64,000 bases of DNA from Cymodocea nodosa (Eukaryota; Streptophyta; Magnoliopsida; Alismatales; Cymodoceaceae): contig CM072339.1 in assembly GCA_036874045.1 (NCBI GenBank), forward strand, positions 18,731,501 through 18,795,500, given 5' to 3'. The notes under the pieces are model-generated. The model saw only the letters and a list, made by a program, of their open reading frames with translations, ran no database searches and was not told where the DNA came from. The position numbers and the translations under genes were made by a program. This document shows, piece by piece, positions 17,109 through 48,802 of the stretch (position 1 is the stretch's first letter; every line of letters begins with the position of its first letter).

Positions 17109-18406
17109 ATGATGACGATGGAGCGTCGGAAGAGGTTCAGTGTTAACGTAGCGGAGATGAAGAACGTTGAGGACAACAGAGATCATGATCAGAAGAAGCA
17201 GAAGAAGTTGGACCTGAGCGGCTTGTCCCTGGACATCTTCCCAACCTCAACCCTCAATCTGTCGGCGGTGACCGTGCTGGACCTCTCCAACAACAACCTC
17301 AAGGTTCATCCGTCGATCGAGCGTTTAGAAACAGAAAAAGGAATACTAGCTAGCTAGCTACTCCTTGAGCGATGATTAACTTAAATATTTGTCGAAGCTT
17401 GCAAGATAGCTGATGCTTGATTTGCTCTCTGTACGTTCATGATTAATTTGATTAGGTCATACCGGAGTCTCTGACGGCGAGGTTGCTGAACTTGGTGGTC
17501 ATGGATGTGCACTCCAACCAGCTTGAAACCCTCCCCAACTCCCTCGGTTGCCTGTCGAAGCTCAAGGTCCTCAACGTCTCCGGCAATCTCCTCCACACCC
17601 TCCCCAAGACCATCGAGGACTGCAAGTAATTACCGTTAATTAATTAATTTTTCGTGTCTTATATACATATGAGTGTGTAGTTGTATGTGAATATCATGAT
17701 ATACAGGTCTTTGGAGGAGTTGGTTGCCAACTTCAACAAGCTGACGATGCTGCCGGAGACGATGGGGTTCGAGCTCACCAACCTGCAGAAGCTGTTGGTG
17801 AACTCCAACAAGCTGGATTTTCTGCCCTTCTCCACCTCCCACATGACCATGCTCCGACTGCTCGACGCCCGGCTGAACTGCCTCCAGTCCCTGCCGGAAG
17901 GCCTCGAGAACCTCATCCGCCTTGAGGTCCTCAACGTCAGCCAGAACTTCCAGCATCTCCGGTCCATACCCCCCTCCGTCGGCCTCCTCCTATCTCTCAC
18001 CGAGCTCGACATCAGCTACAACTGCATCTCCACCCTCCCCGAATCCCTCGGCTGCCTCATGAAGCTCCAGAAGTTCCACGTCGAGGGGAACCCCCTGGTT
18101 TGCCCCCCCATGGAGGTGTTCGAGCATGGCCTGGACGCCGTGCGCTCATACCTCGGCGACAGGATGAACGGCGCGCACGAGTCGAGGCCCAAGAAGTCGT
18201 CGTGGATAGGGAAGTTCGTCAAGTGCGCCACCTTCAGCGAAGGGATGATGCCCAATGCCGCCGCCATCAGGGCCGAGAGGGACGAGTTCTTGCTCTCCGA
18301 CTACCGCTCCATCGACGGCCATGCTTCCCCAAGGTTCATGAGCATGTTCTCCCCTCGTCGGTTGTTCTCCCCCCGCCGGAGTAAATCCGGTCACCAGACA
18401 AATTAA
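17109..18406 (+). CDS. Plant intracellular Ras-group-related LRR protein (PIRL)
   Basis: Three exons, 17109-17303, 17456-17625 and 17707-18406, join in frame to give 354 residues. Both introns are short (152 and 81 nt) with GT/AG ends. After a basic N-terminus, LRRs run from about residue 36 to 250 with the form LxxLxxLxVSxNxLxxLPxxI, for example [30 protein letters not shown] and [19 protein letters not shown]. There is no signal peptide, membrane segment or kinase, which fits the cytosolic PIRL family related to animal Ras-binding LRR proteins such as SHOC2. A C-terminal tail of about 100 residues has basic SPRR motifs. The length and tail resemble the PIRL6/7/8 branch. The family acts in development including gametophytes; its biochemical role is poorly known. 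The long third exon is much more GC-rich than its surroundings. Starts at 17109 and 17118 are both possible. Confidence 0.88.
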
Positions 18407-22279: not shown

Positions 22280-25200
22280 TCAAACAGTCATCGATAGTAT
22301 CTCTCGTGCAATACTAGGATTTTGCTGTATCAACTCTCTAATATTGCCCTCCACCTCTGCCAACTGCTTCTCCAAATACTCCCTAGACGTCTGACAGTAA
22401 AAGGGAGTATGACTTTAAATGACACAGAAGAGATTAGGAAGCATGAGAGAGAGAGAGAGAGAGAGAGAGTGAGAGAATAAGGATGCACCTGCAATGAAGA
22501 TAATGCAGATTCACAGTCCTTGAGCTTCTGCTGCTGTTCATTCATCAAGACCGACTTTGTTTCCAAAATAAACCTGACAAATATGCAGCCATGAAAAACG
22601 AGAATACTAAGGCAACTAGGATAACGCAATGCAACATAAAATGGAATGTTCCTGAGATTGGAGGGCAGAATTGAATACGCACAGTTTACCTGCAACAACA
22701 TAAAAAAAGGGATGCTGATTAAACATTGGTCAACTATTTGATAAAACTCTTTTTTAATAGACAAGAAACAGAATATGGTCTAAAGATCCTTTGGTTGAGG
22801 GCATTGACGAACACACTTATCATGATGCCAAGGCACCACATTGGTGGCCTGAGGCAGACGCCCAGATGGTTGAATCTAAATTTTTAGGTGTATATGTATG
22901 CATACACATCCTAGCTCAGATACATCACCCCGAATAGAAGGGAAGATTGATTTGAAATTTTGATCATAATCCAATAGTTATCAACAAAAGCAATCATTCA
23001 TCCATAGTTATGTACAAAAATATCTAGATTCCATTAATGGTTTTTTAGGACGAATTTTTTTCAAATTTGTTTAATTACGTATAAATATGGTATATAAATG
23101 TGGTCCCTGCTTGTCATTTAAAAAAAAAAAATCATTCTCTTGTTTTAAATTTACACGGCATATTTTTAAAATAGTTTCATTAAGTTTGTCTCATTTAATA
23201 TCAATAATGTATTACTAAATCTTTTGTATTTTATACAGATTTAATATTAAAAAATATGTTAGCATAGTTTTTGACAATAAATAGAGTTTCAGAGCTTCAT
23301 CTAGCGTTGCTAGAAAAACATAATAATAATGGTCATCGGTGATTTAATTTTACTGATTTAATCATATAGAATAAGAAATAATATCTGAGAAATTGTTAGC
23401 ATTACTGATTTAAAATACAAATACTATCGATATCTATGTAATATTTTTTGTAAAAAAATCTTCATTAAACCCTGTATCTTCATATCTTGTTGCCTCCTTT
23501 GCAGTTATGCTCTGCATTGAGCCTTAACCTCAAAGCAACAATTTATACAGCACGTGGCAACACTAAATATAAAACTTCTTTGGAGTTGCATCACACACAT
23601 GGAAAGACCTTTAACATCCTAACAAATTGGCTAGCCCATAACAAGAGCCCCGTCCTTTTAATGTTGGTGGTAGTGAGCAAATGTTTCAATTTGTTGTAGG
23701 GAAAAAGATGTGTTAGGAAAAATAATCCCTAACACTCCTTATATTAAATAGAGAATGGTAAATGGATCTTGCAAGATCCATTTACCCATTACAACACTAA
23801 GTGATCCATTTAATACTCCAACACTCCCCCCTCAAGCTGGAGAGAACAAGTTCAACACTCCAAGCTTGTTACAGAGATCATTAAAAGGACCAACACTAAG
23901 AGGCTTAGTGAAAATATCAGCAAGCTGATCTGAGGACTTGGTATAAGGTGTAGAGATTACTCCCATTAGCAGTAGTTGACGGATATAGTGACAGTCCACC
24001 TCTATGTGTTTTGTACGCTCATGGAAAATCTCATTGCTTGCTATGTATATGACAGCTTGGTTGTCACAAAAGAGCGATATTAGAGTTGAAAGCTTTACTC
24101 CAAGCTGGTCTAAAAAATTCTTGATCCATACTACTTCCTTTCCTGCATGAGTCATGCCTCTGTATTCTGATTCTACACTGGATGTAGATATAACATTCTG
24201 CTTCTTGTTGCGCCACGTGACAAGATTGCCTCCAAAGAATGTGTAATAGCTGTCTGTGGATTTCCTGTTACCTCTATCTCCTGCATAACTAGCGTCTGAG
24301 TATGCAATCAGCTCTAGATGATGGTTGTTTGAGTAGATTAGATCCTTTCCTGGATATCTTTTAATATAGGCTAGAACTCAAAGCGCTCCTTGCTAATGCA
24401 CCTATCGAGGATGTTGCAAGAATTAACTAAGGAGACCAACTGCAAAGGAAATGTCGGGCTTGGTAACTGTCAGGTGAATTAACTTGCCAATCAGTCACCT
24501 ATATCGAGTGACATATTCTAGAAGATCTGTATGAGTATCCCAAAAACCTGGATTCTGTTCCATAGGAGTTGTAGCAGGTTTGCAACCCAACATTCCTGTC
24601 TCCTTGAGTATGTCCAGCACGTATTTCCTTTAAGATAAAGCAATCCTATTCTTGGCATAGGAGAACTCTATACCTAGGAAGAAACGTGGGTGTCCCATGT
24701 CACGAAGGGTAAATACCTTTCTCAGCTCCTCCTTGGTGCAAGTGATGCCAGCCTTGTCATCACTGGTAAGCAGAATGTCATCCACATAAGCGGCAAGTAT
24801 CACAATGCCTTGTGAGCTACACTTCATGAAAACAGAGCTATCTACAACACACTTGTTGAATCCCTGAGAAAGAAGCACAGTGCTAAGCTTGGCAAACCAC
24901 GCCCGAAGGCTCTGTTTTAGTCCATATATCGCCTTTTTCAGGTGACATATCTTGTTCGTCTCCCCTTGAGCAACAAACCCAGGAGGTTGCTCCATGAAAA
25001 CCTCCTCCTGTAGGTCACCATAAAGGAAGGTATTGTGAACATCAAGTTGAGTAAGCGACCAGGACCGATTGACACCCAAGGATAACAGCATACTAATGGA
25101 ATTGAGCCGAGCAACTGGAGAGAAGGTGTCACTGTAGTCAATCCCATACGTCTGAGAAAAACCACAAGCCACCAATCTAGCATTGTGACGCTCTACGAAC

Positions 25201-28200
25201 CCATCTGGTCGGAATTTGTAGAACACCCATCTGCAACTCACTACGGGCGAATGGCAAAGACGATCCACAAGCTCCCATGTCCCTCGTCCAAGTAATGCAT
25301 GCATCTCAACATCCATGGCTTGCTTCCATGGTGGAAGGGTAAGTGCATCCAAATAATGAGTAGGTAAAGACTCGAAGACAACCGCAAGAGAATAAGGGTC
25401 ATGAGAGACAAAAGGAGCAATAGGATGAAGTGTACAAGAACGGGTACCTTTCCGAAGCGCAATAAGAAGATTATCTGCAGACGTGGGAGCCAAAGGTGAT
25501 GATGTCACAGGAGCACGTGGGCGGCGATAATACGTCTGTGCAAACGAAGATACCTCAGAGGAGGGGGGGTCAGTAACCTGTACGTCAGTAATGGGAGACA
25601 GCTGAAGGAAGCTCAGGGTAAGGCAGTGAAGAAACTGATGAGGTGATATCACTAAGCTCCACACTAGACTCTACGAGACCAGATGAGGGAGGGTCAAAGA
25701 AGAGAACATCCTCCAGAAACTGCACATCAGCAGAGACAAGATAACGACGTGAGGGAGGATGATAGCAGCAGTAGCCTTTTTGATGACGAGGATACCAAAG
25801 AAAGACACATCTAACAGAGCGAGATGCTAGCTTATCAAGACCAGGGGAGAGATTCTTGACAAACGCTGTACACCCAAAAACTCTAAGCTAAAGGGGAAAA
25901 GACTCCCGACCAGGAAAGAGCCGTCCAAAGGGAATGGCACCCCCTAAAGGAGTGGAGGGAAGGCGGTTGATTAAGTAGACTACGGTAGAGACGGCTTCCG
26001 ACCAGAAGATGCGGGGCACGTTCATAGCAACCATGAGAGATCGAGCAACATCCAAAATATGACGATGTTTTCGCTCAACAACCCCATTCTGCTAGGAGGT
26101 ATGAGCACAGGTGGTCTGATGGAGAATGCCTCAAGAAGCACAGAGGGAAGATATGATCTCTTGAGTGAATACAAGCGCGTTGTCAGTCCAAAAAATTTTG
26201 GGAGTAAGACCATGCTAAGTTTGAATTTCATTCATAAAGGTAGTGATGATATCAACCACAGAAGAACGATTTTTCATTAAATAAAGCCAACTGGTACGAG
26301 AAAAATCATCAACAAAGACAATATAATATTTAAAACCAGAAACAGATGTGACCTGTGTGGGTCCCCAGACATCATAGTGAATAACATCAAAAGGCTTGGG
26401 AGCCGACACCAACTTACGAGTGAGAAATGTGCTACGCACATGTTTCCCAAGGATACAGGACCCACACTGAAAGGACTCAAGAGACACCCAGGGCAAAGTA
26501 GCACGAAGTTTCTGATGAGACGGATGCCCTAAACGCTTGTGCCATAAGATAGCAGAAGTAGTCGAACTGCAAGCGACTACCAATCCCCGAGGAATCTCGT
26601 CGCGTGCAAGAACATAAACATCATGACCCACACCAATCCTCCTCCCCATCTGCAAATCCTGAAAGGTGCAATGAAAGGGAAAGAATGTAACAAAGCAGAA
26701 GAATTGTTTGACAATTTTGCTTATGGAAAGTAAATTAACGAGAAATTCAGGTACAAGAAGAATGCGATCAAGGGTGATATCAGAATTGATGGGTGTAGTG
26801 CCTTCACCAGTAACAGAGTAACTACGACCATCGGCTAAAACAACAGAGGAGATGCTAGGAAGCTCAGTAAGGCGAGTAAACAAGGAGGAATCTCCTGCAA
26901 TATGGTTAGATGCTCCGGAGTCGATAACCCACACATTGTTTGAATCAGATGTTGAGGTGGTAGAATTACCTGAGGAGATAACATGGTTGGCCATGGCCTC
27001 ACTTGCCTGTTGTGCCCTATAGATCATAAGCTCCTCATACTTTGCTTGAGAGATCTTGATTTCCTCCTGAGAGACGGTCCTAGGAGATGGAGTGGCAGAC
27101 TCTAAGGAGACCGTCACAACATGAGCCAAGGCCGGTAGTGCTGGAGGCCACCCGAACTTGTCCCAGCATTTGTCGGATGGATGGTTTTTACGTCCACAAT
27201 GAATGCAAGGCTGTCGAGGGGCCCTATTGGCCTGTTTTCCTTGCCCCCTAGAGACCTGTCCTGTAGAAAATTAGGTCTGTCTAACCTGTCTTGCACGATT
27301 CCAACCCCATCTCGTGCTGCCAACCTGCACAGCAAGTGCTGATCCTTCTAAACCGGACTGCTGGTCAGTCTGTGGCACCCCAACAATGGCTGTATAGACT
27401 CTTAGGACCTTATTAAAGGTCTGTTGGAAGGAGGGAAGAGCATCAACAGCAAGCATCTGTCCTCAAATCTGATTGGCGAAGGTTGGTTGCAATCCAGCCA
27501 GCAACCGAGCCACAAAGATTTCCTCCTTATACCTTCTTTGTGTAGCAATATCTCCACTAGGAGGTTGATATACTTCGATTTCCTCCTTCAACCCTTTGAG
27601 TCTGTTAAAGAAAGCATGAGGGGTCTCCTGCAGGCCTTGTTTGTCATTGAATACATTTTCCCATAACTCACATACACGGGAAACATTATGTTCATTGCCA
27701 TACATAGCTTGAAAACTGGATCATATACGACTCGCCAGTCAGACCAGCACATAACTCCGATGGATGTTGTCCTCTACACTATTCAGCAACCAGGAAACTA
27801 CTGCAGCATCTGCAGCCCTCCAAGCAACATAGTTCTCAGCCTTGACATCTGATGGTTCATCAAAGAGATGATGTTCCTTCATTTGTGAGACTACAAATGT
27901 CTCAAAGGTTGGAGCTCACTGATGATAGTTGTTATCATTCAATTTAACTCCAGTAACACACAACTTGCAGGGAAAGGAATCATACCTGGCCATACTATAG
28001 CAGACCAAATGAAGACTGGAGATTTCCAGTGAGGTCCAACCAACTCAGGCGTCGGAAGCCTGGCACCGAACTAAGGAGGTGCGTCCTCAGGGGATCAAAC
28101 GGCTGAAACAAATAGTGATTTTCTATTGATTGTTTTGAAGAACCAGGTTGAAAGGCGGTCTGCCACTGGATCAAACTTGAAAGTTATTCTAATGTATGCA

Positions 28201-31200
28201 ACGGTGGATTCCAACTTCTGATTCTCCTACATAGATTTGGTGGATTATCATCTCATTGGGTACTCCCTTTGCATTCTTCTCTTGCATCTGTGGATCAACG
28301 AAAGGTTTTTTCTCTCGCCACCAGATAACTTCTCCTTCACCTTGAATCCCGCGGGAAGTCTAGAACGCGGTGGTCAAACACGAACTGGACCGCGGTGGAC
28401 AGCTGCGACGTACCACACATTGGAACGTGGTGGTCGAGCACGGACTAGACTGCGGTGGATGGCCTCAACGAGTCACGACAAGCGTGTGCGAACCGTGACG
28501 GGCCACAATAGGCATGCGCGAGTACGGACCGCGATGGGCATGCACAAACCACGCACTGGAACGCGGTGGTCGTGTGCAGACTAGATCGCAATGGATGGCG
28601 GTGTTCAGGCTTGCAGGTGCAGACGAACCACGGCGAGCATGCGTGTGTCGCTCTGATACCAAGTTTGTTGTAGGGAAAAGTTTGTTGTAGGGAAAAAGAT
28701 GTGTTGGGAAAAATAATCCCTAACACTACTTATATTAAATAGAGAATGGTAAATGGATCTTGCAAGATCTATTTACCCATTACAACACTAAGTGATCCAT
28801 TTAATACTCCAACAGTTTCAATGAGCTCTATGATGAGGTTCGAAGAACGAATAAGGACAACACCTACAAGATGGTAAGCTTGCAAAAAATTAAAAAAAAG
28901 CTCAAGGATTATAAAAGAAGCATATCATATGATCAACCAAGCCATGATTATTTTAACGGTGTTGACCACACCATGATATATGTGTAGGAGCATCCAATGG
29001 TTCACTACACAATGATGCAAATTGGCCAAAGCAGCTGGTCCTTAGCCTCTTTACTAGTTGGTTTCCCAACATCCCCAACATATCCAGCTTTTGGACTCAC
29101 CTTCACTATCCAAGGATTTTCTCTTTCCCTTGCACCCCCACCCCTACATGTAAGTCACAAATTCACTGCTACACATAGTTTAGCTAAAATAATTACATGA
29201 ATTGGAGATGATTTTTTTGGTAAATAAATGGGAGCATTCGGAGATGATATTTTTTGTCTTCATGTTAAAGTTTAGTTGCATATTCCCACAAAGCATTAGA
29301 TAACCATCTAATAATCAATGTTTAAATTATGAAAATCAATGTGTAAATATGAGTGTCAAAAAACAGAAATGGTATTCTTTAGTTCTGATTCAAATCTGGC
29401 AGCTATCATTTCCCAGTTTTCAAGGATCAACTAATTGCCTATTGCATCAAATTACTCTGTTAATAATTTTGTACTTTATTTTCCTTTTCTATTTACATTT
29501 TAGAAAGTATTCACTTTGTTTTTAAACGAGATCTAGGTCAGATTTCAAACATGATTGGTGCTAATTAAGATTGTTGAATAAGGAAATTTACAATATTTTG
29601 ATTTTGAAATTTGAAATTGAAAGGAAAGTTAGTTATCTTTGATTTAAACTCAAAGAAATGACATGTCAACTTCTCTTACTTCCCATTGTAGTTACCAATG
29701 CATGTATATTAAGAGATTTGTTACTTTTGTTTCAAATGAATATGGTAATTTTGAATAGCAATGATACCATCTTACAAATTCATAACACTCTTCTCTCATG
29801 ATATATAAATTAGCATAAAAATTTCAGTATTACTGAAAATAATAATCATGATCCATATTAACCAAGTATTAATCAAAAATTTGATAATGTTACTAAAAGA
29901 ATAATCCTTATATAACAATAAGAAACATTACCAATTTTATTTTACAAAATAGCATATATGATAAAATGTTAGTTTATTAAGAAACAATATCTAACAATTA
30001 CAATTACTGATTAATAAAATAATTGTATTACAAATGTTCATTATTCCTCACATTGAAACTCTATAACAAAGTTCCCACACTTAAACTCTAGAACAAAGTT
30101 ACTTCATTCCCTTTCAATCCAAAATAGAATAACCCTATATATTCCTACAAACCTCTAAACCTAAAAACCAACAAGCCCTCACATGTAGGAAACTTGTTCA
30201 CTAATGCCTTTCATTTACCATCCATCAAACCAAAAACCAACCTCTTTTTCCACAACTAAAACACAAATGGGACATCTAGGCATGCAGAAACTGGCATTGA
30301 CGGGGACATCAGTGTTATGACATTAGGGACTAGGATTGGTTGATGTCAATGGGGATCTGCTGGCCTGGATCCAATCAAGTGTCAACAAACATGTGCATGT
30401 CTAGTATGGCAGGAACATGCACACATGGGTGCCAACGACAGGCACATGTAGGTCTAGGTTACATCAATGAGGATACATTGGCTTGGGAATCATTGATGGT
30501 GATATTATCAAGGCACCCAGGTGGTGAGCCAGGATGCCTTGGGCAGATTTTTTTTATTTTTTTATATAGTTTATTTAATCTTTTGTATATCTACAAGTAT
30601 GTACAAATTTATAATTATGTGCAATATACTAACTGCACCTATAAAAAAATCAGTAATATACTAAATTTTTAACCACACAATTAAAAGTATTTTCTGAAAT
30701 ATTTGAGTATTTTTATAAAAAGAATCTAACCTGAAGATCCTGAACACAAATAAAAAAGTAATCTACAGAAAAATAACAATTAAATAGCATAAAAAATAAC
30801 TAAATAGAGATCATTTCAAAGTACAAACATTAAATAAGAAGTGAACCATGTAATAATAGTGTCAAATAGCAATAACAATGAATACAATGAACACTAAAAA
30901 AGAGTCTGTATTTGCTTTAGCATCTATATTATCAAGTCCAAAGATGAGGTGTGGTCATGTGGACTGAACAGGTATTTATTATTGAATCTCATTTTTATAA
31001 TATATAATTTTTTCATTTATGTTAAGGCTAAAACAAAAGAATATTAGTTTATTACAATCATGATACCTATTCAATATCACAAGAAAAAGCAACCATTGTT
31101 GAAGAAAAAGGGAAAAAATAGTCATTTAAATGTTCTTATCCTAATGGAAAATGGGAAAATAGTTTAAGAAAATGTCATTTTCCCATTTTTTGACATTTCA

Positions 31201-34200
31201 TTTTTGGATTTTACTTTTTGTGTTGTTGTCACTGACATTTTTTTACTGTTTTAATACTTTATTATTTAAATCTTTAGTTGTGCCAGTTATATAGTTATGT
31301 TTAAGGACTTGCTCTTAATTGATGAATACAAATTCAAAATATTTTTTAAGTATATTGTATGTAATTGAAATAAATTTGTTTTATCTAATTAAATTGATAA
31401 CTGTGAAGATTATATGCAAGTATATTTATATTTGGATTTTTTTAAGAACTTGTTTTTAATTGATGAATACAAATTTAAAATATTTTTTGAAGTATATTGT
31501 ATGTAATTGAAACAAAATTTTTTTATCAATTCTCTAGATCTAGAAAATTTGAGCTTCTAAATTTTTGATAAGGAAATTGATCTATACTTCGAGAAACATT
31601 TTAATGAAACTATCATAGAAAATTCTTATATGCTAAATTTCTGTAGACACACAAAAAATATAATTATTTTAATAGAGTTAGTACTTTGAGGTTAAGGAAG
31701 CATTAAGAAAAAAAAATGGTATTCCTATCAAGGTTTAGAAATACATGTGAAGTTTGGACTAAATAATTAATTATAATATAATTTAAAAGAGAAAGAAGAA
31801 AGGACACTTTAATATCTATATTTAAGAATAAAGGTGACATACATAATTGTATATCAAGGTATTAAAATAATGAGTCATACAATGAAATTTTAGGAAAGGG
31901 TAATTAAACAAAGATTAAGGTATGAAACTGTAATCATGGAGAATCAATTTAAACTTTTTTAAGTATATGAATAAATTGGATCCTTAATATAGTTCTTAGG
32001 ATTAGTACATATTATTTGTCATATATTTGTTATCATTTGTAACCTCTATTTACAGAGGTCTCTTATTAGTCAATGAAATAAATTAATTCTTCCAACATCT
32101 CATCTCTTCACAAGATTTATACTAGTTTACATCAATAATAACTTAAACAACTAATTGAAAATTTAAAGTTGAAAAAAAAAAGAACCACAACATGGTGTTC
32201 ATGGATTTAGAATATTAGAAAACACTTGTGATAGAGTACCTAGATATTTATTGTGGTGGTTATCAAAAAGAAAAGGAGTACACATTGATTATACTAACAT
32301 TGTCAAAGATATGTAAAAGAAAGTAATGCCTAATATTAAAACCATAAGCAAGACAAAAGAATTTTCAACCGATATAGGTTCACATCAACAATCATCTAAA
32401 AGTCCTTACCTATTTATCTTGATTAAAGATGAAGTGGTAAAAAATTCAAATAAAATACTTTAGCGTATGCTATTTATTGATAATAGAGTTGTACTTGATG
32501 AGAGTAAACTAGGAATTGGTTCTAAATTAAAACCATATGAGATATCTTAGAATCCAAAGAATTTAGACTATGGGCTGATTTGGGAACCTAAAATCTAGGC
32601 TCTTTGACTCAATCTCCATAAATAGAATAGATCTTCATTACCAAGATGAATTTCAAGAATCCATTTCACGACATGAATCAACAAGATTTGGAGAGAGAAT
32701 GTTCTTGTAAACCATTAATGTGAGAAGCAGTAATCTAAAGAACAAACGAGAGAACTTCCAAGGGCATTTTTATGAACTGTTGGACGCAAGAGTAGGAGTC
32801 AATGGAGGTTGCTTTCCAAACATGATCAACTTTTACATTGGCAATCTGAGCTACAGACATCCCCACACAAGAGTTGGAAAGAGAAGACTTAATAAGAATT
32901 TGGAGTTGGAACTTTTTCCTAAACTATATGTAAGTAGATTAAAGGCTGAATACATAGTGTAAGGTTATCATTTATAAGAATAATGATGAAAGCATAAAAT
33001 TTGAAGCTAGGAGATCCCCTAAAAATGAGAATTTTAGATATTTAAGATCTCTGATAAGTAATAATAGAGAAATTAAAGAAGATGTTGTGCACACTGCACA
33101 GAATTAAAATAATTTGAACAAAGTGTACTACATCTTGAGTACTATGTGATAAAAGAATGTCACTAAAATAAAAAATAAAATTCTCAAGAAAATATATATG
33201 CTTGACTATAATTTATAATACATAATGTTAAGCTGTTAAACATTAACATATGCAAAAAGTTAGTATAACAGATATGTGAATGTTGAGATAGATGAGTAGC
33301 AACACAATAAAAGATAAGCTTAAATTCATCCAAAATGTAGGAGTGGCACTAATTAAGGATAAAATAAGGTAAAATCATCTTAAATGGTTTGTTCATACCC
33401 GTAGAAGGCCTACAGATATGCCTGTAAATAAATGAAAATTAATTATGTACAAGCTAAAACAGGTAGAATAAAATCAAATTTGACTTAATTAGTAATTATG
33501 GAAAAAAAATTAAATTAGCATAATTTAACAGAATACTTAATGATGGACAGAAATAACTAAAAGTAAAGGATTTATGTGACAAAGCCTGCATATTGGGTTT
33601 AAAGTATTAAATGTTGTTGTCGTTGTCATTGCTGTTATTGTGTATTCTTTACCATAGTCATATTTGTTTTCATTTTCTGAATACAAGTAAGGACATATTT
33701 CAAGCATGAAAAATTAAAACTATATTCAAAAATATTTGAATACAGACAAATTCTATCTAGATATCCAGATCTGTATTGCACCTCTAGCAGTACCAGTTGG
33801 ACAAAACTAAATCATGAGCAGTTCAAGTTTTACAAAAGCAGTTCTGTTCCAATAATATAGATGATTAGGTTCTGATCTCATCATCCAAAATTCCAAAACT
33901 ATTGTCAACAGACCAAGAACATCAGCATACCAGGAAAAGAAAAACTGAGATGCTGCATAACAATTTGAATCACACGAAATCAACATTATAGATTGTTAAA
34001 ACAAGTACAGATAGGCATGATCAAGGAAATAATATAATTCTACAATAAAGTCTACTTTAACATTTTTATGACAGGGAATAATATTAGGTAAAACCATCTA
34101 TTTACCAGGAATCAATACGTTCATATTGGCTGAAATTACTTATTTATGGAATTCTTATATTGAACATGCATTGTTTGTGAAGACAAGGCAACATATATAC

Positions 34201-35242
34201 AGATCCTTCAAATTTCTTTCACGTAGACATGCATTAACATTATTGATTATTTTTGGTACCTCAGCTGAAAAAGGTTAAGACATCATGATGTTTCCAATAC
34301 TAAAATAGTAAAAATAGTGGTCCTGAAATTGCAAATCATACTGTTAAATTTCACTAGGGAATTCTTTTCAAAAAGAAAAAGGTTGATTGAGGAATCATGT
34401 GACTCCACAATTTTTTTTTATTGTCATCTGGTTTCATTTCTTCTAATGTGGATCAAATTCCACAAATAGCAATGTAAGGAACTTCCTGCACTAATCGGAC
34501 ATTTGTACCGATGCAGACTTCTAGTTGATAAGTGCGTAATCTTACCACTGCCAACCAGAAGCGTGAAACATGAATGTGATGAATCATTCTGCATTTGCAG
34601 TACAGGTATATTTCCAATTTAACTTTCACATCGCAGTTCTAGTTCAAGATTGCAGGTCATGCCCGAAGACTTAATTTTTGGAGTAAGACTCGACAATACA
34701 AAAAAGACAGAAACTTTCATATCAGAAATAACACTGGCATACCGACAGACTTATATGTGTTCGTGTCATCCGGTAATTGCCGCAACTCCTCCAGTGTCAG
34801 ATACGCCCTTTTCTTCTCACCTTCTTTATTACGCATCTGATTTTGCACCTATAAGATGTAAAGCAGAAACTCAGACCACGATATGCTGAAAGCAACTGGC
34901 AAACTCCAACCGTCCTCAAATTTGCAAGAGGAAAAACAACGTATTTTCCCTATTGAGTTAGATTCTTTAATTACAAAAGGACGATTTCCCGTAACTACCT
35001 GCTTCAATGTGCCAGCGGCTTCGATCATGCGAGCTTGGAGCTCCAAGTACGCCTGCACACCAAACCATATGAGATCGATCCAAGTAAATTTCAATTTCTC
35101 AGGAAAATATCGAACGTGTTATGAAAAGCTATGCCAAGGAACAAATACAGCTTGGAGATCGTTGGAAGGAATAAGAGAGGAAAAAAGGATGGCAGTGAAT
35201 TGTATGGGAGGAAAATACCTTTCTGCTGTCTTCTTCCATCAT
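22280..35242 (-). CDS. PFD1: Prefoldin subunit 1 (beta-type), six exons including a 7-nt microexon
   Basis: Minus-strand exons 35242-35219, 35052-34999, 34848-34743, 22689-22683, 22573-22489 and 22390-22280 (stop) join to 387 nt, 128 residues, the usual length for plant prefoldin 1. The protein has two helices around a short beta-hairpin region: helix 1 includes AYLELQARMIEAAGTLKQVQ and EKKRAYLTLEELRQLP; the middle NTYKSVGKLFIL matches the family YxxVGRMFIL; helix 2 includes KLKDCESALSSLQTSREYLE and a SMTV end. Prefoldin is a cytosolic hexamer that passes unfolded actin and tubulin to the chaperonin CCT. Introns 1, 2, 4 and 5 are short, while intron 3 (34742-22690) is 12,053 nt and contains a copia element and an RTE fossil. 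Exon 4 is only 7 nt (GTAAACT). Without it exon 3 and exon 5 do not join in frame. All borders are GT/AG. Overall reading is firm; the microexon is predicted. Confidence 0.9.
22447..22471. repeat. (GA)n microsatellite in last prefoldin intron
   Basis: About 12 GA units within the short intron between prefoldin exons 5 and 6; on the gene strand it is a (CT)n pyrimidine tract. Confidence 0.9.
22683..22689 (-). other. Predicted 7-nt microexon of prefoldin subunit 1
   Basis: On the minus strand: TTGTTGCAG acceptor, GTAAACT, then GTGCGT donor. It joins the phase-1 end of exon 3 (…GTC G) to the phase-2 start of exon 5 (G TTT ATT TTG) and encodes G-K-L. That matches the conserved G-R/K-x-F step in prefoldin 1. 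No transcript is available here, so this is inferred from phase, splice sites and protein alignment. Confidence 0.7.
23487..23691 (+). pseudogene. Possible CACTA-type transposase fragment split by the copia element
   Basis: An open frame crosses the copia insertion: before it, NTKYKTSLELHHTHGKTFNI; after it (from 28815), NELYDEVRRTNKDNTYKM. The order N-K-HT-G-F then DE...M loosely matches the plant Ptta/En/Spm transposase domain. The fragment is short, so this is a weak call. It matters because it may be the target into which the copia element inserted. Confidence 0.3.
23692..23823 (-). repeat. 3' LTR of the copia element
   Basis: 132 bp, TG...CA on the minus strand (TGTTGGAGTATT...CCCTACAACA). 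It contains a perfect 30-bp palindrome at 23757-23786 centred on CTTGCAAG. Confidence 0.95.
23824..23833 (-). other. Polypurine tract of the copia element
   Basis: GAGGGGGGAG on the minus strand, directly before the 3' LTR; it primes plus-strand DNA synthesis in this element class. Confidence 0.9.
23832..24310 (-). pseudogene. Copia RNase H domain
   Basis: Reads SDASYAGDRGNRKSTDSYYT at the N-side, then VTWRNKKQNVISTSSVESEY, FCDNQAVIYIASNEIFHERT, KHIEVDCHYIRQ and DQLADIFTKPL, the standard copia RNase H motifs including the catalytic D, E and D positions. It ends with a stop at 23834-23832 next to the polypurine tract. The domain itself is open, but the connection to the reverse transcriptase (about 24330-24630) is broken by shifts or stops. 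Confidence 0.9.
24630..25664 (-). pseudogene. Copia reverse transcriptase domain
   Basis: Open for 344 codons. Motifs in order: WKQAMDVEMHALLGRGTWEL, CRWVFYKFRPDGFVERHNAR, LVACGFSQTYGIDYSDTFSP, QLDVHNTFLYGDL, MEQPPGF, KAIYGLKQSLRAWF and the catalytic AYVDDILLTS, then DMGHPRFFLGIE. Copies RNA of the element into DNA. It is preceded by integrase sequence in another frame. Confidence 0.92.
25665..27129 (-). pseudogene. Copia protease and integrase region
   Basis: The upper part (27129-26215) is open: an aspartic protease core VWVIDSGASNHIAGD, a pre-integrase zinc motif LWHKRLGHPSHQKL with CGSCILGKH, and the start of the integrase core DVIHYDVWGPT and FVDDFSRTSW. Further down, in shifted frames, are TSPQNGVVERKHRHILDVAR, FWSEAV.T.VYLINRLPS and LRVFGCTAFV. 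Active-site D, D and E residues can be placed, but shifts and stops break the frame near 26215 and 25890. Confidence 0.88.
27463..27993 (-). pseudogene. Copia gag
   Basis: A start at 27993 (MARYDSFPCK) leads through VKLNDNNYHQ, AENYVAWRAADAAVVSWLLN and VCELWENVFNDKQGLQETPH to AFFNRLKGLKEEIEVY and FVARLLAGLQPTFANQI, matching copia gag proteins. In-frame TGA codons interrupt it at three places where related proteins normally have Trp. A CCHC-like zinc knuckle is expected near 27200 but is not clear. Confidence 0.75.
28359..28649 (-). repeat. GC-rich repeated leader of the copia element
   Basis: Between the PBS and gag lies a GC-rich block in which GAACGCGGTGGTC...GACTAGAC-GCGGTGGAT-like units recur near 28364, 28421 and 28558, together with GGCATGCGC/GGCATGCAC repeats. 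It is unlike the AT-rich rest of the element and has no convincing reading frame. Confidence 0.65.
28650..28661 (-). other. Primer-binding site of the copia element
   Basis: TGGTATCAGAGC on the minus strand, complementary to the 3' end of plant initiator methionine tRNA, the usual copia primer. Confidence 0.92.
28683..28814 (-). repeat. 5' LTR of the copia element
   Basis: 132 bp, matching the 3' LTR except at three sites; one change breaks the palindrome. An extra partial copy of its inner end lies at 28664-28682, between the LTR and the PBS. Confidence 0.95.
28892..32190. other. Prefoldin intron 3, left part without other genes
   Basis: No gene recognised. A direct repeat pair lies at 31301-31387 and 31441-31527 (about 87 bp each, TAATTGATGAATACAAATT core). 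A GC-richer patch at about 30270-30545 has loose GACATCA-GTGTT and CACATG repeats; its open frame lacks a domain. Confidence 0.45.
32191..33640 (+). pseudogene. RTE-type LINE fossil
   Basis: Stop-ridden frames give MVFMDLE, TCDRVPRYLLWWLSKRKGV, IVKDM, KEFSTDIGSHQQSSKSPYLF (the family has the GLHQGSALSPYLF motif) and a degraded FADD box (RMLFIDNRVVLDES), then RLKAEYI and, after 33240, the C-terminal RKDKI...HIREHLGVAPI..KIR.NRLRWFGHV-like tail. It ends in a (TTG)n-like tail at about 33612-33640, typical of RTE elements. A block at about 32570-32925 between the RT core and the C-terminal part has no similarity to the family and looks inserted. Many stops show great age. Confidence 0.75.
33641..34742. 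other. Prefoldin intron 3, right part
   Basis: Intron sequence before exon 3 on the gene's strand; no separate gene or element recognised. Confidence 0.45.
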
Positions 35243-38816: not shown

Positions 38817-40019
38817 TCAGGACGACGATTCAAACACCATCGGTGCTCCACCACCATCAGTGCCGTGACGGTGCTCTCCTTCGTACGTAACGATGAGCAT
38901 GGACGGATCGTCCGGTGCCCTCTCTACGTGCTTCCTCGCCGGACACCCTCTGAGACTGCTGCACTTGTAGTACCCCCTGCCATCACAAAATCAATCGATC
39001 AGACAGACGACCAAACGAACGAGCAAAATCTGGTTTTGATTTATGATTTCAGATGCGAAATCATTCGCACGTTTAGGAAGAGCTTTTTGGGTGAACACTG
39101 ACTGTATACTGACCTCGGATATGGAGAACCCTTGATGGGCTTCTGGCCGTACTTCCTCCACGAGTACTCGTCCGGCGGGATGTCGGCCACTTTCGGGCTT
39201 ATGGCCGGAACACGGATCGCCCTCTTGACTCTGTTCTTCCTGCAACGATCGCAAGCATATACGACATACATGATCAGCAATAGAGGATGCCATTAGCTAG
39301 CTTGTCTTTGGAAATACAGGTACCCACCTTTTTTTGGAGCAGTGGCAGCGCCTTCCCGGGACAACGTCAGAGTGAGCGTAGCCATGCTGTCCCTGGCACC
39401 GTTTCTTAAAAGAGGAAGACAAAGGTGGCTTCCCAGCAGAAACGGCGGCAACTGGAGGGAGCAAAAGGGAAGATCCCAGCTTCCCGTTGGACACACTGGG
39501 ATCACTGGTGATCGAGGACAAGAACGACGAGTTCGCGGACGATAAGGGGTGGGAGATACCCAAGGGGCTGCTATTGTTCTTGCTAGCGGTGTTATTGGCA
39601 CGGTCCTTGGAGATCTCTTGTTTGCAGGGCTTGGTGAAGTCTAGAGTCAGGACATGCTTCTGGGCCGCCAGCTGGGTTGTAGGCAGCAGAAGAGGAGGAG
39701 GTGGAACGGAGTGGGGATGATTATTATGACTCGAAGAAGAAGAGGAGGAGGAGGAGGAGGAGAAGGAAGAAGGACCACGTCTAAAGCGGGCGTGGCCGGT
39801 TCTATCTAGGATGGAGATGATCTTCTTGAACTTGGACACCGTGAAGTCGGTAATCTCCCTGCAGTCCAGCTGCTGCTTCTGTGGCTTCTGCTGCCGAGGA
39901 AGGTGATGATGGTGGAGCTGGAAGATGAGATGCTCCATGCTCCTCAGCCCAGCTGTCGCCGCCTCTTGGATGGACGCCACCTCTTCCATCTCGGTGTATC
40001 CCATCAGATCCACAGCCAT
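38817..40019 (-). CDS. WRKY transcription factor, group IId
   Basis: Minus-strand exons 40019-39328, 39239-39114 and 38976-38817 join to 325 residues. The N-terminus [20 protein letters not shown] is typical of IId. Residues 61-81 ([19 protein letters not shown] and RR) form the calmodulin-binding C motif with HARF. A Ser run spans 87-97. A plant zinc cluster follows (KRCQGQ...[15 protein letters not shown], about 208-237). The WRKY domain has [16 protein letters not shown] at 258-273 and a zinc finger with Cys278, Cys284, His308 and His310 (C-x5-C-x23-H-x-H). The second intron falls inside the domain at the family's conserved site, after the R of SPYPR. It binds W boxes in the nucleus; IId members often respond to defence and calcium signals. 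The zinc cluster is short and appears to lack one Cys usually present. W boxes lie upstream. The start is firm. Confidence 0.95.
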
Positions 40020-40139
40020 ATCTCTTCACTCTTCTCTCAAGCCAAGTAGTGGCAGCAAGTGGTTTTCTTTTGTAAATAACAAGCCGTAGTGGTTGGTCAT
40101 GGAAGAAGTGGAAGAGGGTGAGGAGGAGCCGAGGAGATA

Positions 40140-47581: not shown

Positions 47582-48802
47582 AAGTGCAACATTTAGATGT
47601 CAAGAATGTTTTCCTCCATGGAGATCTACATAAAGTAACCTCATGGATTTGAAGATCCGTCTTGTCTAAAATATGTTTGCAAGCTTTAAAAGGTTCTATA
47701 TGGTCTAAAGCAAGCATCAAAGTCCTAGTATGATAAATTTAGTGATTTTCTATTCCAATATGGGTTCAACTTTTGCTTCTCTAATATTTCCCTCTTCATT
47801 TACAATGATAAGAAAAGTGTTTTCTATTTACTTTTATACGTTGATGATGTTATCATTTGTGGAAGCAATAAAGTTCTTATGATTGATTTTATTGAAAGTG
47901 CAAGTCAACACTTGGCCATGAAAGATCTAGGTACCTTACATTATTTCCTTGGTATCGAAGTTCATAGAACAATGGATGCAATGTTTTTGTCTCAATAACA
48001 ATACATCATTTCTATTTTGTGAGGTGCCTCCATGTTGGAATGCAAGCCTATCAAAAGCCTGATGCTAGCCAAGCTCTCACAATATCTTGAACAAGAATCC
48101 ACTCCTTTTGAAGATGGTCATTTATATCGACAAATAATTGGGAAGCTTCAATATCTCTCTTTTACTGAACCTAATATATCCATTCCTATGAATTTGCTAA
48201 GTCACTTTATATAGACCCCAAATCAAATACATTTTTCACTTCTAAAAAGTGTGTTGTGCTATCTAAAAGGGAGCGTAATAAAGGGCCTATACTACACAGC
48301 TCAATCCAGCAACAATGTGTATGTTTTCTGTGATGCCGACTTCAATGGATGCAATGATACCATGAAATTCACCACCAGGATGTGCATTTTCATTGGTGAG
48401 AACTACATTTCGTGGTCAGCAAATATACAATTGACAGTCTCCCTAAGCACCATAGAGGTTGAGTATAAAGCCCTCACTAATGGGACTACAGAACTACTCG
48501 AGATGTGCAACCTTTTTTGTGAACTTGAGGTGTTGTTGCCACATGCATCTCAACTTTTATGCGATAGCAAGTGCATAGTTTGCTTGACAAAGAAACCAGT
48601 GTATTACACTCGATCTAAGCACCTTCAAGTTGCCTATCATTTTGTTCAAGAGAAAGTTTCTAACAAAGCTGTTGCAATCAGATTTATTCCTGGAAGCCCT
48701 CAACTTGTTGATGTTTTTACCAAAGGCATTGGAGCTATATTGCTAAAAAGGTTTCTTCCCAAACTTGGCCTTATCATACGATCAAGTTTGCTGGAAGGCT
48801 AA
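47582..48802 (+). pseudogene. RT core and RNase H of the old copia element
   Basis: RT: VQHLDVKNVFLHGDL, GLKQASKS, then the catalytic LLYVDDVIICGSN and DLGTLHYFLGIEVH, with stops. RNase H (from about 48032): MLECKPIKSLMLAKLSQYLE, then VYVFCDADFNGC, YISWSANIQLTVSLSTIEVE, CDSKCIVCLTKKPVYYTRSK and VDVFTKGIG. The last 183 codons (48251-48802) are open. Confidence 0.88.

Follow-up and report, generated by a model that had tools for sequence, protein, structure and literature searches.

We identify the sequence GTAAACT (positions 22683-22689, minus strand) as, very probably, a 7-nt coding microexon in the gene of plant prefoldin subunit 1 (PFD1), where its inclusion is likely constitutive. It lies in a window of 64,000 nt of Cymodocea nodosa DNA with a G+C content of 35%. 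As far as the genomic sequence speaks to it, our analysis confirms the microexon proposed in a preliminary description of this DNA and supports its interpretation as part of PFD1. The gene structure, the reading frame, the fit of the protein and the rank of GTAAACT among the scored candidates were directly observed.

The gene consists of six exons on the minus strand, with exons 1 to 3 located within 35242-34743 and exons 5 and 6 within 22573-22280 (Table 1). The local sequence on that strand reads ctttttttatgttgttgcag/GTAAACT/gtgcgtattc, where slashes, here and below, mark cut points. Spliced with the 7-nt exon, the gene encodes a protein of 128 amino acids (MMEEDSRKAYLELQ...NTYKSVGKLFILETKS...REILSMTV), which scores 67.3 bits against the Pfam family Prefoldin_2 (cut-off 27.6) and covers positions 2-106 of the 106 in the profile. 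Among its eight matches to solved structures, the best two are both named prefoldin subunit 1 (7wu7, 5.3e-17; 6nr8, 8.8e-16) and are both presumably human, followed by a prefoldin beta subunit at 3.6e-7. The alignment with the PFD1 of 7wu7 extends over 110 residues without a gap, with VGKLFIL here and VGRMFIL there, and the three beta prefoldins in the structure alignment, which we take to be archaeal, are also gapless across this step (VGTLIV, VGTLIV and SGNILI). The family score and the closest structures thus bear out the assignment of the gene to prefoldin subunit 1; the exon coordinates given in the preliminary description hold as well.

Table 1. Features of the PFD1 gene and of its predicted microexon, in positions of the window.
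Feature	Positions	Strand	Remarks
Exon 1	35219..35242	-	24 nt, first ATG to AAG; start codon 35242-35240; donor gtattt
Exon 2	34999..35052	-	54 nt; acceptor gtgtgcag, donor gtagtt
Exon 3	34743..34848	-	106 nt; phase 1 end ...AAG TCT GTC G; donor gtatgc
Intron 3	22690..34742	-	12,053 nt; Copia-type retrotransposon inside
Microexon acceptor and polypyrimidine tract	22690..22709	-	CTTTTTTTATGTTGTTGCAG
Predicted microexon GTAAACT	22683..22689	-	7 nt: Gly bases 2-3, Lys, Leu bases 1-2
Microexon donor GTGCGT	22677..22682	-	Weak; 4 of 9 consensus positions
5'-site-like CAG/GTAAAC	22684..22692	-	7 of 9 consensus positions; overlaps acceptor, cut point at first base of the microexon
Intron 4	22574..22682	-	109 nt
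Exon 5	22489..22573	-	85 nt; Pfam Prefoldin_2
Exon 6	22280..22390	-	111 nt including stop codon

Exon 3 breaks off one base into a codon (GTC G) and exon 5 opens with a third base (G TTT ATT), so that the joint requires 3n+1 bases, and since the relatives are gapless across the joint, exactly seven nucleotides are called for. The preliminary description had stated that exons 3 and 5 cannot be joined in frame, and this holds: a direct join gives ...TYKSVGLFWKQSRS-stop (VGLFWKQSRS-stop), a frameshift that ends at a stop after nine codons and covers only positions 2-52 of the Prefoldin_2 profile (36.7 bits). Keeping the intron leads to ...SVGMPVLFLI-stop. With GTAAACT inserted, the product reads ...TYKSVGKLFILETKS... 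and 128 codons remain open, in agreement with the earlier claim that these bases restore the phase and supply Gly-Lys-Leu. When exon 3 donors were scanned from -40 to +80, five alternatives in the right phase were found, of which only those at -8 and +10 avoid a stop; products from two of the alternative donors reach 62.8 and 43.7 bits for Prefoldin_2 vs 67.3 with the microexon. No alternative exon 5 acceptor in the right phase was found from -150 to +40.

We ranked GTAAACT among all AG..GT strings of 1-40 nt with a length of 3n+1, located at least 60 nt from exons 3 and 5. There are 472 such strings between the two exons, and the frame stays open in 322 of them. GTAAACT is first among the 322 by a hidden Markov model built from only four sequences, the structure relatives (55.0, no tie), and also first by summed splice score, calculated with general plant average frequencies rather than ones trained on this genome. 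Its total of protein and splice scores is 62.0, while the runner-up has 51.6. The protein fit separates the 7-nt candidates poorly, as GTGGACT (23993-23999), which also has a GT donor, scores 54.7 against 55.0, and it is thus the splice signals that decide. The protein fit was also scanned more widely, with GC and AT donors and AC acceptors added (AC paired with any of the three donors), for exons of up to 301 nt at least 20 nt from exons 3 and 5; this gave 4740 in-frame candidates out of 22,434, of which the best 12 were viewed. Among these 12 are five 7-nt candidates with AT or GC donors and AG acceptors, four of them at 55.4-56.2 and one tied at 55.0. They were dismissed on their donors alone. 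The preliminary description would have been contradicted by another exon in some other part of intron 3, and among the 322 GT-AG candidates none comes near GTAAACT on fit and signals combined. As an internal, in-frame exon of 7 nt with an AG acceptor and a GT donor, it falls within the size limit of 15 nt for plant coding microexons.

The splice signals of the microexon are of very unequal strength. Its acceptor has the best splice score of all 619 AGs lying between exons 3 and 5, and is the strongest of the five acceptors of the gene (CTTTTTTTATGTTGTTGCAG; 8.2 vs 2.1-6.2); the last 25 nt before the microexon are 72% pyrimidine, again the highest value among the five. The donor ACT/GTGCGT is the weakest of the five (-1.2 vs 1.1-4.1), matching the consensus at 4 of 9 positions. 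The good acceptor that had been proposed is therefore present, and so is the GTGCGT donor, but the preliminary description mentioned neither the weakness of this donor nor a rival site, CAG/GTAAAC, which is the best of the 37 AG/GT sites in the span and agrees with the consensus at 7 of 9 positions rather than 4. Splicing at CAG/GTAAAC would leave out the seven bases of the microexon and break the reading frame. After exon 3 has been joined, this upstream site is weakened to TCG/GTAAAC (5 of 9; score 0.13 vs -1.18 for the true donor), so the order of intron removal should matter for the choice of donor; if the downstream intron is removed first, CAG/GTAAAC competes at full strength with the weak donor.

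To evaluate the chance expectation, the span of 12,169 nt from exon 3 to exon 5 was resampled with first- and second-order Markov models, 1500 times each. The motif AG-G-N-[Lys/Arg codon]-NN-GT occurs once in the real span, vs a mean expectation of 0.63-0.64 (order 1) and 0.75 (order 2), and roughly every second simulated intron carries it. Being expected 0.6-0.75 times by chance, the Gly-Lys/Arg motif alone is thus no evidence for the microexon. A splice sum equal to or above the 7.0 of GTAAACT accompanied the motif in 8 of the 1500 first-order and 4 of the 1500 second-order simulations (0.3-0.5%), and the motif occurred with an acceptor of at least 8.2 and a donor of at least -1.2 in 0 of 1500 in each order. 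Across the entire window, counting both strands, this motif is present 13 times including the microexon, and the other 12 have splice sums of at most about 5.0. Among the 34 AG-N7-GT strings in the span, GTAAACT scores 7.0 and the second-best 1.2.

Intron 3 contains, on the gene's own strand, a Copia-type LTR retrotransposon (23690-28814) that makes up 5.1 of its 12 kb. Its 134-nt direct repeats (23690-23823 and 28681-28814), with three differences between them, are taken as the long terminal repeats; between them, matches to the RVT_2 reverse transcriptase (203 bits), Pol_BBD and parts of the gag-pre-integrase were found in Pfam, in a coding frame that is split into several open reading frames. 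The sequence GTTTCAAT occurs at both outer borders of the element (23683-23690 and 28815-28822) and is likely a target-site duplication. Outside the gene, an open reading frame at 48215-48802 (plus strand) looks by eye like the terminal RNase H portion of a Copia polyprotein, with no Pfam match at 0.001.

Other explanations for the joint between exons 3 and 5 were considered. Exon 3 could end at a donor 10 nt further (agt/GTTATT) and be joined directly to exon 5 with no microexon at all, giving SVGMPVFIL in frame, without a stop and with the Prefoldin_2 match of 62.8 bits, but this donor scores -3.3 vs 1.1 for the usual one, and the product is one residue longer than the solved relatives at the joint and falls 4.5 bits lower in Pfam and 6.5 bits lower in the four-sequence model, all of which makes this splicing very unlikely. 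That another small exon of intron 3 links exons 3 and 5 has a next to negligible probability: the GT-AG strings of no more than 40 nt that keep the frame do number 322 including GTAAACT, some alternative 7-nt exons have a similar protein score, and the five with AT or GC donors equal or exceed it among the best 12 of 4740, but none of the other GT-AG candidates, the set scored for splice signals, unites fit and signals (51.6 at best vs 62.0), and the gapless relatives ask for exactly 7 nt.

It is also conceivable, though we regard it as highly improbable, that GTAAACT belongs to a zero-length recursive splice site, CAG/GTAAAC, through which the 12-kb intron would be removed in two steps. The first place of this site among 37 and its agreement with the 5' consensus at 7 of 9 positions would fit such a role, but a recursive site implies that the flanking exons join in frame without added bases, and here that join runs into a stop after nine codons; furthermore, any recursive use of the site could be a side path rather than the main one. 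The retrotransposon within intron 3 might point to a decayed copy of the gene, in which the missing base is a mere lesion. This is barely credible given open exons with GT-AG borders throughout and a full-length product that scores strongly for its family.

Searches beyond the gene gave no confirmed relatives of PFD1 in viral contigs (36 pattern matches; tblastn, 1e-3) or in prokaryote contigs (76 pattern matches), and Rfam (gathering scores) and ARAGORN had no matches over the window. The neighbourhood includes, at about 39100-40020 on the minus strand, a partial WRKY gene in which a plant zinc cluster precedes the beginning of a WRKY domain (Pfam matches on a 43-aa piece), resembling WRKY group IId. 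At 17681-18406 on the plus strand there is a leucine-rich-repeat open reading frame (Pfam LRR_4 and LRR_8) that may be the final exon of a gene of the plant intracellular Ras-group LRR type.

The predicted exon can be compared with the conserved plant microexons of 1-15 nt, for which the published studies report 2,398 exons in ten species, 45 conserved clusters and 20,224 predictions across 132 genomes (PMC8831610; PMC12409088). It is similar to the exons of Yu et al. 2022 (PMC8831610) and of MEPDB (PMC12409088) in size, coding role and the tendency to be unannotated; its length is not a multiple of 3, as in about half of them, and T-rich intron sequence lies beside it, a motif reported as enriched there (PMC8831610). 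In contrast to those published exons, it is predicted from genomic sequence. That such tiny exons are frequently missing from annotation, as the preliminary description had held, is documented in PMC8831610. AP2 and invertase genes have a 9-nt exon that also lies within a conserved protein motif (PMC8831610), and in potato invertase the second intron is removed first according to PMC4674806. With 9 nt, however, the frame survives skipping, whereas skipping the 7 nt of PFD1 breaks it. The 1-nt exon of APC11 and VPS55, as presented in PMC8831610, belongs to other genes and differs in length from the 7-nt exon of PFD1, but both are missed by annotation and their omission alters the predicted protein.

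To count as a published cluster, plant microexons have to agree in length and phase across three or more land plants. PFD1 is likely to be already among them, although the word "prefoldin" has zero occurrences in the main texts of PMC8831610 and PMC12409088, and none of the three papers found to contain both "prefoldin" and "microexon" has, by its title, plant prefoldin genes as its subject. According to a survey of plant prefoldin genes, the majority of genes within a group resemble one another in exon-intron structure, and the part of its text available contains no mention of a tiny exon (PMC4792155). Overall, the PFD1 microexon appears to be an ordinary case of a known kind, perhaps already catalogued.

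We propose a splicing scheme in which exon 3 would be joined across 12 kb to the strong, pyrimidine-rich acceptor of the microexon, and the weak GTGCGT donor across 109 nt to exon 5, which would restore the frame and add Gly-Lys-Leu ahead of the conserved Phe-Ile-Leu of PFD1. Its inclusion by the cell's splicing machinery is what we infer from these features. The 109-nt intron would be removed first and the 12-kb intron later, following the order described for most of 69 constitutive Arabidopsis microexons, whose downstream intron tends to go before the upstream one, with the latter frequently detained (PMC8831610). Skipping would lead to a frameshifted and probably degraded transcript. An improbable extension of this scheme is that the microexon acts as a built-in splicing gauge, where transcripts with the 7 nt would give working PFD1 and those without them a frameshift and decay, possibly tying PFD1 output to splicing capacity by feedback. 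The first six bases of the microexon together with the acceptor CAG outscore its own donor and would thus make splicing an either-or choice, and PFD1 output could follow splicing capacity because prefoldin reportedly sustains the Arabidopsis LSM2-8 splicing machinery, according to a review (PMC10893143).

The importance of the microexon is mostly one of annotation, as without it a conserved chaperone subunit gets predicted as truncated or shifted. A 7-nt exon located behind a 12-kb intron and overlapped by a 5' site also provides a case for studying how, given two donors spaced by 7 nt, the spliceosome settles on the weaker one.
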